Source of the DNA: Albidovulum litorale
GTDB lineage: Bacteria; Pseudomonadota; Alphaproteobacteria; Rhodobacterales; Rhodobacteraceae
Reading direction: 5' to 3'
Assembly: GCF_025751495.1 (NCBI RefSeq)
Contig: NZ_JAOWKZ010000002.1
Location: 620,001 to 684,000, forward strand
DNA: 64,000 bases
A program made the translations under genes and the position numbers. The notes beneath the pieces were generated by a model. It searched no databases, had not been told where the DNA came from, and saw nothing but the letters and a program-made list of their open reading frames with translations. Of the stretch, positions 11,633 to 15,807 are shown one piece after another; within the stretch, counting starts at the first letter, position 1; every line of letters begins with the position of its first letter.

Positions 11633-12979
11633 ATGACCGAGCGGCTTTCCCATCTGACCGAAGCGCTTCTGGCGGCGGCGACGAAGGCCGGGGCCGATGC
11701 CTCCGATGCCATCGCCGTCGACGGAACGTCGGTTTCTGTCGATGTCCGGGGCGGCAGGCTGGAACAGGCCGAACGGTCCGAAGGGATCGAGATCGGGCTG
11801 CGGGTTCTCATCGGCAAGCGTCAGGCCTGTGTCTCCGCCTCCGACATCTCTGACCGCACTATCGCCGAAATGGCCGAGCGCGCCGCCGCCATGGCCCGCG
11901 AAGCGCCGGAGGATGAGAGCATCGGGCTCGCTGACCCGGCGGACCTGGCGCGGGCCTGGGACCTTGCCGCGCTCGACCTGACCGACCCGACATCCGAGCC
12001 CGCCGCCGCCGATCTGGAGGAGGATGCGCGCCGTGCCGAAGCTGCCGCCCTGAATGTCAAAGGCGTCAGCCAGTGTCAGGCGGCTTCGGCCAGTTATTCG
12101 CGCCGTCACATCCATATTGCCGCGACCAACGGCTTCTCCGGCGGCTACGGGCGAACAGGACGTTCGGTCTCCGCCGTCGCCATTACCGGCGAGGGGCTGA
12201 AGATGGAGCGCGACTGGGCGGCCGAAAGCCGGACCTATCAGTCCGATCTGCCCGACGCGGCAGAGGTTGGAGCATTGGCGGGAACGCGCGCCGTGGAACG
12301 GGCGGGCGCGAAGAAGCCAAAGACCGGGGCCTATCCGGTGATCTTCGATGAACGCATCGCCTCGGGCCTGATCGGTCATCTGCTGGCTGCCGCCAACGGT
12401 TCGGCGGTGATGCGCGGATCGTCATGGCTCCGGGATGCGCTGGGCCAGCAGGTGCTGCCCAAGGGGCTTTCGATCCATGAGAACCCGCACCGGCCGCGCA
12501 TTTCCGGCTCGCGCCCCTTCGATGCCGAAGGCCTGCCGACCGTCGCACGCGACGTGGTGCGCGATGGCGTGCTGATGGGCTGGACATTGGACCTCGGCAC
12601 GGCCCGCAGGCTCGGCATGACCTCGACCGCCAATGCTACGCGCGGTCCGTCCTCGCCGCCGTCGCCCAGTATTTCGAACATCGCAATGACGCAGGGTGAC
12701 AAGAGCCGCGAACAGCTGATGGAGGAGATGGGCACGGGCCTTCTTATCACGTCGATGATCGGCGCCTCTATAAATCCCACGACCGGGGATTATTCGCGGG
12801 GCGCGTCGGGATTCTGGGTGGAGAAGGGGCAGATCGCCTATCCGGTCAATGAATGCACGATCGCGGGCAACCTGCGCGACATGCTGATGCGGATCACGCC
12901 CGCGAACGATGCGCGGGGGCATCTGAGCCACGTTGTCCCCTCGCTTCTGGTTGAAGGGCTGACGCTTGCCGGCGAGTGA
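11633..12979 (+). CDS. pmbA: PmbA-type subunit of the TldD/PmbA (TldD/TldE) metalloprotease
   Basis: 448 residues across the full family length. Typical features are the N-terminal DVRGGRLEQAERSEGIEIGLRV segment (about residues 37-58), the central HIHIAATNGFSGGYGRTG region, and the C-terminal glycine-rich stretch SRGASGFWVEKGQIAYPVNE. The HExxxH zinc motif of TldD is absent, which marks it as the PmbA/TldE partner, so it needs a TldD encoded elsewhere to form the protease that processes modified peptides. The gene overlaps the following phosphatase-like gene by 14 bases. Confidence 0.92.
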   Translation: MTERLSHLTEALLAAATKAGADASDAIAVDGTSVSVDVRGGRLEQAERSEGIEIGLRVLIGKRQACVSASDISDRTIAEMAERAAAMAREAPEDESIGLADPADLARAWDLAALDLTDPTSEPAAADLEEDARRAEAAALNVKGVSQCQAASASYSRRHIHIAATNGFSGGYGRTGRSVSAVAITGEGLKMERDWAAESRTYQSDLPDAAEVGALAGTRAVERAGAKKPKTGAYPVIFDERIASGLIGHLLAAANGSAVMRGSSWLRDALGQQVLPKGLSIHENPHRPRISGSRPFDAEGLPTVARDVVRDGVLMGWTLDLGTARRLGMTSTANATRGPSSPPSPSISNIAMTQGDKSREQLMEEMGTGLLITSMIGASINPTTGDYSRGASGFWVEKGQIAYPVNECTIAGNLRDMLMRITPANDARGHLSHVVPSLLVEGLTLAGE

Positions 12980-13745
12980 TCTTGATCTTCTGATCGAGGC
13001 CGCGCGTGAGGCCGGCCGCATCGCGCGCGGGTTCTTCCGCCGCGATCCAGGCATCTGGCAAAAGCCCGGCGATGCTGGACCGGTGACGGAGGCCGATCTG
13101 GCGGTGAACCGGATGCTGCATGCCGAACTCGCCGCCGCCCGGCCGGACTATGGCTGGCTGTCGGAAGAAACGCCCGACGACGGGGCACGGCTGAGGGCCG
13201 AAAGGTGCTTCATCATCGACCCGATCGACGGCACGCGAGCCTTCATCGAGGGCGATACGAGCTGGTCCCACTCGCTCGCCGTCGCTGTGGGCGGCCAGAT
13301 CACTGCCGCCGTTGTCTTTCTGCCGATGCGCGACGCGCTTTATGCTGCAACCGAAGACGGCGCCGCTACGCTGAACCACGCCCCGATCCGGGCGTCAGCC
13401 AAGGCCAAGGCGGGTGAGGCAACACTTCTGACCGCCAAATCCAACCTGTCGCCGGATCTGTGGAAGGCCGGCGCCCCACCGCCTTTCACGCGCAAGTTCC
13501 GCGCCTCGGTTGCGTGGCGGCTCTGCCTTGTGGCCGAGGGGCGGTTCGACGCGATGCTGACGCTGCGCCCGAGTTGGGAATGGGATATTGCAGCCGGCGA
13601 CCTCATCGCGCGGCGGGCGGGCGCGACAGTGACCGACCGGCAAGGCGCGCGCCTGTCCTACAACGCCGCCGACCCCCGGGTCGCGGGCGTGATTGCCGCG
13701 CCGGGACCGCTCTGGTCCACGCTGCGCGAGGGGCTCATTTCCTAG
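12966..13745 (+). CDS. Inositol monophosphatase-family phosphatase (CysQ-like)
   Basis: 259 residues. The metal-binding acids are in GWLSEET (Glu67/Glu68) and IIDPIDGTRAFIEG (Asp85, Asp88), with the C-terminal WEWDIAAGDLIARRAG completing the three-metal site. The family covers inositol-1-phosphatase, 3'(2'),5'-bisphosphate nucleotidase (CysQ) and histidinol-phosphatase; the DPIDGTRAFI pattern cannot separate these safely. The start is a TTG at 12966, inside the end of pmbA; no better in-frame ATG exists before the conserved region. The overlap implies translational coupling to pmbA. It ends overlapping the opposing small gene by 11 bases. Confidence 0.85.
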   Translation: MPASDLDLLIEAAREAGRIARGFFRRDPGIWQKPGDAGPVTEADLAVNRMLHAELAAARPDYGWLSEETPDDGARLRAERCFIIDPIDGTRAFIEGDTSWSHSLAVAVGGQITAAVVFLPMRDALYAATEDGAATLNHAPIRASAKAKAGEATLLTAKSNLSPDLWKAGAPPPFTRKFRASVAWRLCLVAEGRFDAMLTLRPSWEWDIAAGDLIARRAGATVTDRQGARLSYNAADPRVAGVIAAPGPLWSTLREGLIS

Positions 13746-14112
13746 GCAATATACCGATCTCTCCGGCCACGATGACCTGAACCGGCACGCCGTCAAGCTG
13801 GTCCGGCACCCGGTGTTCGGGCGTGGTGGTTTCGGGATCGATCTTTTCTGCGACGAAGACGGTGATGCAGGGCTGACCTGCCGTCGGACCGTCCTGACAG
13901 ATGCCGTCCGCGACGGCGACGACGCCCGGATAGGTCATCAGCCTCGCTTCGTGCCGGGCCAGCACCTCGGCCACCTTCGCCTGCCCTGCGCCGATAGGTG
14001 CCGCGTCCCCGTCGCCGGTGGCGCTGGCCGCAAAGGTTTTCCACCTGTCCGCGAAACCCTCTCCCGCGGCGATTTCATCTGCCGACCAGACCGGCACGAG
14101 TGTTCGCTTCAT
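13735..14112 (-). CDS. Stand-alone homologue of the protease N-terminal domain
   Basis: 125 residues starting MKRTLVPVWSADEI. By eye it aligns end to end with residues 1-122 of the divergent protease at 14499. Shared elements in the same order are W-S near the start, A-G-x3-A-D-x-W-x2-F-A-A, A-K-V-x-E-V-x3-H-E-A-x2-M, V-V-x-V-A, P-x-x-T-V-x-V, and P-x3-D-G-V. The start at 14112 is preferred because AAGGAG lies six bases before it, exactly as at the protease gene. An in-frame ATG at 14211 would add 33 residues resembling a signal peptide but has a poor ribosome site; if used, the protein would be exported. The function is unknown; a propeptide-like, inhibitory or partner role is inference. Confidence 0.72.
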   Translation of the reverse strand: MKRTLVPVWSADEIAAGEGFADRWKTFAASATGDGDAAPIGAGQAKVAEVLARHEARLMTYPGVVAVADGICQDGPTAGQPCITVFVAEKIDPETTTPEHRVPDQLDGVPVQVIVAGEIGILPRK

Positions 14113-14498
14113 CTCGATCTCCTTCACTGTCCGGTCCAACTGGACGGACGCTGACGCCATGCCCGGCCACAGGGCGCCGACTGACAGGACTACAGCAAGA
14201 AAATTGTTCATCTTCGGTGCGCTCCCGAATGGGACCCGACGGGTCGCGAGCGGCAGGCAACAGGCGGTGTTCGATAGAGTAGCCGCGCTGCGCCTCGCCT
14301 TTAAAGATAGGAGGCCGGAAGCGAATCGCAACCTTGAGAGTGCAATGGGGTAAAACCAGACGTGGCGACCATAGGTTGTTTCTGGTATAGTGGCTTCGCG
14401 CTTAATCAGTATTTTAGAACGATTTCAGTCGGGTCGGTATTTCGCGCCCGACGATGCGCGACCTTTTCAGGGAAGGGTAATTTCAAAAGGAGATTGAT
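14113..14498. other. 386-bp divergent intergenic region of the protease / N-domain pair
   Basis: No gene is supported here on the preferred starts. If translation of the left gene began at 14211 instead, the left 99 bases would be coding. Bases 14370-14425 are AT-richer than the surroundings and are the likely promoter area for both genes. TTAATCAGTATTTTAG (14402-14417) resembles a CtrA box but has 8-base rather than 7-base spacing to TTAG. The protease ribosome site AAGGAG is at 14487-14492. Confidence 0.6.
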
Positions 14499-15596
14499 AT
14501 GACACGCGATCTTAAGCAGTGGTCCGGTGCGCAGCAAAGCGCGGGCAAGAAACTGGCCGACAACTGGGCTGGCTTTGCCGCCAAAAAGGCCGGTGAGCCG
14601 GACAAACAACGCCTGGAGGCGATGGAGGCCAGCGCCAAGGTCACTGAAGTGCAGGAGAAACACGAAGCCGAGATCATGGCGAAAGAGAACGTCGTCGGCG
14701 TGGCCTGTTCCAACAAGATGAAGGGCACGACGCTGAAGGATACACCGGCGCTGACCGTCTATGTGACCAAGAAGGAGAAATCCGCGAACATCGCCAAGGG
14801 GTCGGAGATTCCGGCGGAGATCGACGGGGTCACGACCGATGTCGTCGAGGTGGGCGAGTTGAACGCACTTGCCTTCAACACGCGGGTGCGGCCCGCTTTG
14901 CCCGGCTATTCCATCGGTCATTACAACATCACGGCGGGCACGTTCGGCGCGCTGGTGCGCGATGTGCGGCGCTGCTGCTGCGAGAGCGAGCATTGCCATT
15001 GCCGCCACGGTCATGGCCATGGGCGGCAGGACTGCAAGGGCGACATCCTGATCCTGTCGAACAACCATGTTCTGGCCGATGTGAACAAGGCCCGGCCTGG
15101 TGACAAGATCCTGCAGCCCGGTCCGTTCGATGGCGGGCTATACCCCGCCGATACGGTTGCGACCTTCGAGCGGACGGAGGAAATCGTCTTTGGTGCCTCG
15201 GGCTATAACCTAGTTGATGCCGCGCTGGCCCGTCCGACGGATGCGCGCAATGTCACCGCCTCGATCATCGGCGCGGCGGCACCGACAGGTGTCGGACAGG
15301 CGCTGCCCTTGATGAACGTCCTGAAGGTCGGACGCACGACCGAAGTGACGCAGGGCGTGGTTCTGGCGACGAATGCGACCGTCGCGGTGAACTTCGGCGC
15401 CGAGGGAATCGCGATCTTCCGTCATCAAATCATCACGACGGGCATGTCGGCGGGTGGCGATTCCGGCAGCCTATTGATGGATTTCGATCTGAACGGCGTC
15501 GGGCTGCTGTTTGCCGGTTCGGCGGTGATCACAATCCACAACCACCTTCTGGACGTTCAGAACACGCTTGGTGTCGAGCTGGTCACGACACGCTGA
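14499..15596 (+). CDS. Trypsin-like serine protease with Cys/His-rich insertion
   Basis: 365 residues. The N-terminal domain (about 1-122) is shared with the divergent small gene. A chymotrypsin-fold domain follows; the likely triad is His190 in ILSNNHVLA, Asp240 in NLVDAALARP and Ser322 in AGGDSGSLL, with Gly319/Gly320 for the oxyanion hole. Between the first strands and His190 is a segment, residues 159-179, with six Cys and five His, which looks like a metal-binding insertion. No signal peptide or membrane helix is visible, so it appears cytosolic unless exported in a non-classical way. The ribosome site AAGGAG lies six bases before the ATG. A GC-rich hairpin follows. The substrate is unknown. 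Confidence 0.82.
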   Translation: MTRDLKQWSGAQQSAGKKLADNWAGFAAKKAGEPDKQRLEAMEASAKVTEVQEKHEAEIMAKENVVGVACSNKMKGTTLKDTPALTVYVTKKEKSANIAKGSEIPAEIDGVTTDVVEVGELNALAFNTRVRPALPGYSIGHYNITAGTFGALVRDVRRCCCESEHCHCRHGHGHGRQDCKGDILILSNNHVLADVNKARPGDKILQPGPFDGGLYPADTVATFERTEEIVFGASGYNLVDAALARPTDARNVTASIIGAAAPTGVGQALPLMNVLKVGRTTEVTQGVVLATNATVAVNFGAEGIAIFRHQIITTGMSAGGDSGSLLMDFDLNGVGLLFAGSAVITIHNHLLDVQNTLGVELVTTR

Positions 15597-15607
15597 AACG
15601 GGCGGTA

Positions 15608-15630
15608 TCGGGGCGGCGGTGCCGCCCCGA
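15608..15630 (+). terminator. Hairpin after the protease gene
   Basis: TCGGGGCGGC and GCCGCCCCGA form a perfect 10-bp stem with a GGT loop, 11 bases after the stop codon. No T-run follows, so termination strength is uncertain. Confidence 0.55.
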
Positions 15631-15807
15631 AAGGCAATCCGGGCAGGCGCCTCCGCCGCCTTGAGGCTATGCGCCCCATCGCATAGGGTGGCGCGAACCC
15701 ATGGCCTTAGCGGAGCCGGCATATGACTCAGCGCGTTGCAGATGTTGCCCACGGGCGATCCTCCGGCGGGCCAGCTTGCGAACGCGATTTCTGAGCCGCA
15801 GGCGACG

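Follow-up and report, generated by a model that had tools for sequence, protein, structure and literature searches.

Why should a bacterium carry, next to the gene for a trypsin-like serine protease, a separate gene for a copy of that protease's own N-terminal domain? The question is raised by a 64,000-nucleotide stretch of the Albidovulum litorale genome (Rhodobacteraceae; contig NZ_JAOWKZ010000002.1, positions 620,001 to 684,000), hereafter the window. A protein of 125 residues is encoded on its minus strand (13735-14112) and a NAL1-type trypsin-like protease of 365 residues on its plus strand (14499-15596), where an earlier reading of the letters alone (the sequence-only reading) had placed them. 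That reading had aligned the two proteins by eye, and the likeness holds: residues 9-122 of the small protein match residues 8-124 of the protease with 41 of 117 positions identical (35%; 63.5 bits and E=2e-17 in a single BLASTP comparison). The profile comparison that it had proposed as a check also gives significant similarity: in a search of open reading frames (ORFs), a profile of 94 protease N-domains picks out the small protein with a domain E-value of 1.7e-14. These two matches rule out a chance resemblance. At this locus the N-terminal domain of the protease (residues 1-124; 14499-14870, plus strand) has a homologue encoded by a separate adjacent gene, as in stand-alone propeptide-like inhibitors. 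On balance we judge it probable, though far from certain, that the locus exemplifies a widespread two-gene module, in which an NAL1-type S1 serine protease is accompanied by a separate N-domain paralogue that would serve in trans as a prodomain-like regulator.

The pairing recurs widely. Genome contigs were scanned with the protease alignment, and the best 80 of 566 relatives were taken as loci. With the profile built from the 94 protease rows only, a separate second N-domain ORF was found in 26 of the 80 loci and a copy fused to the protease C-terminus in 2; an earlier profile, in which 10 of 104 rows were stand-alone domains, the window's included, gave 28 separate and 2 fused copies. A third profile (A4), trained also on stand-alone domains, combined 24 protease N-domains with the window's small protein, 27 of the 28 separate copies just mentioned and the two fused ones. 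It detected a second N-domain in 43 of the 80 loci, and is not circular for the loci that it adds. In these 43 the second domain lies downstream on the same strand in 28, upstream on the same strand in 9, divergently in 2, tail-to-tail in 2 and fused in 2; that is, 37 of the 41 separate adjacent cases use one strand, and one of the two divergent pairs belongs to a genome of the window's own genus (G216). Pairs occur in Chloroflexota, Pseudomonadota, Bacteroidota, Bacillota, Actinomycetota, Acidobacteriota, Thermodesulfobacteriota and others, as well as in two archaeal phyla. The N-domain is rare in Pseudomonadota (4 of 398 genomes at E<=1e-5), and one of these four genomes (G873) was found through a 77-residue stand-alone domain directly behind a protease. 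In three actinomycetotal loci (L093, L075 and L080) a short N-domain gene was seen on the strand opposite to the protease, divergent in one and tail-to-tail in two.

Co-occurrence was surveyed across 298 genomes from the class to which G1024 belongs (an Anaerolineae bacterium whose genome contains locus L107), counting as stand-alone any open frame of fewer than 300 residues. The N-domain is present in 80 of them, with both forms in 65, the protease only in 14 and a short ORF only in one. A protease thus occurs in 65 of the 66 genomes with a stand-alone domain, versus 79 of 298 overall (Fisher p=2e-50, a descriptive value that ignores shared ancestry). The two genes lie within 6 kb of each other in 46 genomes, always on one strand, and apart in 19; in ten loci that were inspected, the short gene stands beside the protease in 3 and has no protease within the examined flanks in 7. 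The short ORF of the single stand-alone-only genome (G1132) bears the protease-type TDV signature and adjoins genes that, by their look, we take to be groES- and groEL-like, and one genome counted as protease only (G1212) has a pair of N-domains, separated by 143 bp, each within a longer frame.

The sequences point to the stand-alone domain being one old paralogue of the protease N-domain. Placing the stand-alone label on a tree with 126 N-domains takes 8 changes, versus 28.6 in shuffles, and strongly supported branches force at least 2; this tree rests on 83 columns, its bootstrap had not settled, and L051, a large fusion protein, was mislabelled as stand-alone in it. The window's stand-alone domain groups with that of an Anaerolineae genome, L053 (98/96), and their two proteases show a parallel grouping (99/87). 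Over a set of 34 pairs, distances among stand-alone domains follow those among catalytic domains (Mantel r=0.50, with 0 of 20000 permutations as high; 0.46 with the same-phylum effect removed), and nearest neighbours agree in 18 of the 34; this set is without L035, L046 and L051, and L067 was labelled Pseudomonadota by default. A set of 50 pairs gave r=0.48, and 0.45 after the same correction (without L035 and L051, and adding L040 at E 8e-9, L046 at 7.5e-8 and the doubtful L050 at 1.6e-4). The N-domain closest to the stand-alone domain is that of its own protease in just 7 of 50 pairs, which argues against repeated fresh duplication. The two forms also differ at particular residues (87 protease versus 50 stand-alone rows): position 113 is Thr in 97% of protease rows versus Val or Ile in 92% of stand-alones, Asp114 is found in 100% versus 38%, and Lys73 in 93% versus 16%. 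The sequence-only reading had proposed a local inverted duplication as the origin of the pair. Since both genes of the L053 sister pair lie on one strand, as most adjacent pairs do, and since stand-alone domains group together instead of each pairing with the N-domain of its own protease, this part of its account is not borne out.

Within the genus the pair is present in 3 of 22 genomes, namely the window's, G215 and G216, the latter two with proteases each 82% identical to that of the window. In all three the genes diverge, and a neighbour that looks inositol monophosphatase-like either adjoins the small gene or overlaps it slightly. A fourth genome (G202) has a distant trypsin-like relative only; that protease (L036, 1483-2601) scores above the Pfam Nal1_C cut-off, and its N-domain match is weak. 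The nearest relative by the neighbour gene (G198, 91% identical) retains a 46-residue remnant of the small gene (L148, 2273-2410); next to it, a deletion of roughly 1.7 kb has eliminated the entire protease together with most of the small gene, so the two were lost together. In five other loci among 18 examined (L151, L152, L156, L160 and L161) a gene that looks KdtA-like follows at a distance of up to about 0.45 kb, and nothing matching the pair was detected. In a codon comparison of the three pairs, the ratio of nonsynonymous to synonymous differences (pN/pS) was lowest in the catalytic domain (0.10-0.14), higher in the core of the protease N-domain (0.28-0.43) and highest in the core of the stand-alone domain (0.45-0.68), indicating that the small protein is constrained yet evolves faster than the protease. 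A survey of 198 genomes of the window's taxonomic family, made with the small protein, gave matches at E<=0.01 in 35, the best outside the window's genome at E=1.6e-4; these outside matches, at sites not inspected individually, are treated as chance.

The small protein is predicted to have the fold of the NAL1 N-domain, and the predicted fold of the free domain appears to resemble that of a protease pro region. Both NAL1 domains match the window's protease over their length. For Pfam NAL1_N (PF25608; gathering cut-off 27 bits), the protease (18.0) and the long form of the small protein (22.3) both score below the cut-off, and among relatives the stand-alones of L053 (30.9) and L064 (31.0) and the fused copy of L130 (53.1) score above it. 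Trypco models are contained in Pfam. At a limit of E 10, where filters drop most weak matches, the Pfam scan returned no Trypco match for the small protein and NAL1_N only, and Pro_Al_protease (PF02983) was absent from the results for the window's proteins. Sequence homology of the N-domain to alpha-lytic-type pro regions was rejected, the hhalign probabilities being without significance (0.20 and 0.14 percent, with 14 pro regions extracted from 17 loci, of which the rows L168 and L172, which are identical, and L176 look badly cut); in an earlier, voided run on three alignments, each with 20 column-shuffled controls, one control scored 99.7. An anti-phage defence system was likewise rejected, neither protein having matched in PADLOC at a limit of E 1.

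Comparison with known systems shows both what is familiar and what differs. In rice NARROW LEAF 1 (NAL1; PDB 7y77, 8has, 8hat, 8hau, 8pme, 8pmg, 8pmi, 8pml, 8pmm, 8pn1 and 8pn2) the N-domain lies inside the protease itself, and the window's proteins miss the Pfam cut-offs of the NAL1 families; the titles and abstracts searched mention no separate N-domain protein of rice NAL1. The pro regions of alpha-lytic protease and streptogrisin (PDB 2pro, 3pro and 4pro) have no profile-level similarity to the N-domain; those of alpha-lytic protease are cut from a secreted precursor, whereas the second copy in the window is a separate gene. A protein of Desulfovibrio piger named 'alpha-lytic protease prodomain-like protein' (4hlb) was not found by the N-domain profile at E<=5. 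SUB1-ProM of Plasmodium, a eukaryotic protein of the subtilisin system, belongs to a different fold family from the window's pair. It resembles the pair in arrangement, being a stand-alone propeptide-like protein that is encoded beside protease genes and has been demonstrated to inhibit the protease (PMC6993865). Trypco1 and Trypco2 are unrelated small trypsin-co-occurring proteins described together with NucA-trypsin conflict systems (PMC7159879). There too small proteins stand beside trypsin-like peptidases, and trypsin and Endonuclease_NS occur in one protein, as appears to be the case in a Tsukamurella plasmid (L051, 2498-4396: N-domain, protease-like region and Endonuclease_NS); the window's small protein differs in being a paralogue of the protease's own domain without a Trypco match.

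The small gene has two possible starts. Its frame remains open upstream of the ATG at 14112, and a second ATG at 14211, overlooked by the sequence-only reading, adds 33 in-frame codons (14113-14211, minus strand), giving a 158-residue form with a signal-peptide-like N-terminus. Both Shine-Dalgarno and start strings quoted by the sequence-only reading are present, with AAGGAG at 14119-14124 (minus strand) for the small gene and at 14487-14492 (plus strand) for the protease, but the former, given the start at 14211, falls within a longer open frame. The extension, with its hydrophobic signal-peptide-like stretch, is open in all three pair-bearing genomes of the genus; when each of the three upstream regions was shuffled 4000 times by dinucleotides, 22, 1 and 15 of the shuffles, respectively, satisfied the criteria, which had been fixed after the sequences had been seen. 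The upstream starts pair with Shine-Dalgarno sequences at -6.6, -12.5 and -7.1 in the three genomes. The internal ATG has duplex energies of -8.8 (window), -12.2 (G215) and -10.5 (G216), whereas among 139 internal ATGs in 12 long ORFs of the window only 14 come to -8. This strong internal site in all three genomes argues that a cytosolic form is made as well. At the protein level the extension is little constrained (pN/pS 0.77-0.84 over 32-33 codons), which may fit a signal peptide and equally an untranslated stretch. Two cysteines are common to the three small proteins, and a disulfide between them is possible. The two in-frame starts suggest that the genus makes a cytosolic and an exported form. 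No signal peptide is apparent at the N-terminus of the protease, and of the two forms only the short one would meet a cytosolic protease. Beyond the genus, where signal peptides were judged by eye and hydrophobicity only, signal or lipoprotein-like N-termini were noted in the stand-alones L041, L111, L116 and L117 and, by eye, in L085, L119 and L122. The four from Bacteroidota (L085, L111, L119 and L122) have lipoprotein-like signal sequences by eye, and their proteases do not.

How might the free domain act? Most likely it would be a prodomain-like regulatory subunit in trans, binding the catalytic domain or the built-in N-domain of the protease and either keeping the protease inactive or assembling it; activity would be set free by a signal or once the partner is lost. 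That the free N-domain works with the protease, as the sequence-only reading had supposed, gains support from the co-occurrence in 65 of 66 genomes, the adjacency in 43 of 80 loci, the parallel divergence, the two fusions and the predicted pro-region-like fold. From fusion, co-occurrence and fold we infer physical binding; the effect would be inhibition or folding control. The same partner could, rather unlikely as this is, leave the active site uncovered and instead join a protease oligomer through N-domain contacts, setting its size or symmetry. Rice NAL1 sequences with one PDB entry each were deposited as 3 or 6 chains, some NAL1 entries are titled 'open' and 'close', stand-alones keep the core fold residues while mostly lacking Lys73, Thr113 and Asp114, and the two natural C-terminal fusions put two N-domains on one protease, all of which suit such an assembly role, but the structure predictions that could speak to it are of monomers only. 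A role as substrate adaptor, in which the free domain would bind targets and deliver them by pairing with the protease N-domain, we think decidedly unlikely; it would agree with the joining of the N-domain to other activities, as in the Tsukamurella fusion and in a Sphingobium plasmid (L049, 3010-4398), where it is attached to a PLD-like domain.

If instead the long form were the main product, the partner could be immunity-like and guard the envelope from protease freed by lysis or transfer, or have another target. The extension shared by the three genomes, the pairing of its starts with Shine-Dalgarno sequences, the two kept cysteines and the signal or lipoprotein-like N-termini elsewhere all speak for export, but most stand-alones compared have no such N-terminus, the extension is weakly constrained and the strong internal site argues for an additional cytosolic form, and we regard this explanation as unlikely. 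Equally doubtful, and offered as speculation, is a pan-prokaryotic two-gene module of protease control, with a separate prodomain-like N-domain paralogue as dedicated partner; in this genus and several other lineages the partner would also be made for, or sent to, a second compartment, by a dual start here and lipoprotein-like sequences elsewhere, so that control of the protease would be coupled to the state of the envelope. Hardly credible is the notion that a recent inverted duplication left a functionless fragment in decay. The stand-alone domain does evolve faster than the protease, and most genomes of the genus lack both genes, but the pairing spans bacterial and archaeal phyla and the stand-alone core is under purifying selection. 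At the DNA level the two genes show no inverted repeat, the only one of at least 16 nt in 13700-15650 falling within the protease gene; recent inverted duplication is rejected by this, by the tree and by the same-strand neighbours.

The sequence-only reading knew of no described system of this form. For the NAL1-type family this agrees with the literature searched, mainly open-access titles and abstracts, in which a free NAL1-type N-domain is not described; propeptide-like inhibitors encoded beside protease genes are, however, known. A separate prodomain-like partner is of a known kind, and its family, its spread and its dual-start form appear to be new. In rice, according to the abstracts, NAL1 influences leaf width as well as grain yield, and these sources, a maize NAL1 paper among them, contain no account of a role for its N-domain. 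Many prokaryotic proteases share the NAL1 build, and the recurrence of the pair across numerous bacteria and some archaea suggests a widespread means of controlling this protease that seems not to have been described. If regulation by the free N-domain is true, a partner travelling with the protease across phyla would be a model for on/off switching in the NAL1-type family, and the free domain a natural binder for biochemistry. The proposal ties the NAL1 N-domain to the prodomain concept and is testable with two small soluble proteins.

In the protease, His190 (15066-15068), Asp240 (15216-15218) and Ser322 (15462-15464, in GGDSGS), all on the plus strand, are invariant across 46 aligned proteases and presumably form the catalytic triad. 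The 287 bp between the outermost divergent starts (14212-14498) are the presumed site of both promoters; no sigma-70-like consensus was found there, and a promoter and terminator scan was likewise empty. The final 11 bp of the small gene overlap the 3' end of a plus-strand neighbour (12966-13745), which we take to be inositol monophosphatase-like; other neighbours in the window and genus look KdtA- and TldD-like. The largest cluster of neighbour genes covers 18 loci. A gene of about 300 residues without a Pfam match lies behind the protease in 11 of the 80 loci, recurring in a side branch (L060, 1121-2038; L056, 5953-6861), and in L060 and some others it is placed between the protease and the stand-alone N-domain. 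On a Rhizobium plasmid (L050; 2105-2386 and 2417-3370) an NAL1-type protease gene stands beside radical SAM and HEXXH peptide-modification genes, and a small divergent gene next to the protease weakly matches the N-domain profile (E 1.6e-4). Immediately before the strand with the catalytic His, the window's protease has an inserted Cys/His-rich loop (14973-15035, plus strand), a possible metal site, which L039 and L040 lack in the alignment; it is present in the window's clade, G215 and G216 included, and in the proteases of L034, L035 and L053, where its sequence varies and stays rich in Cys and His.
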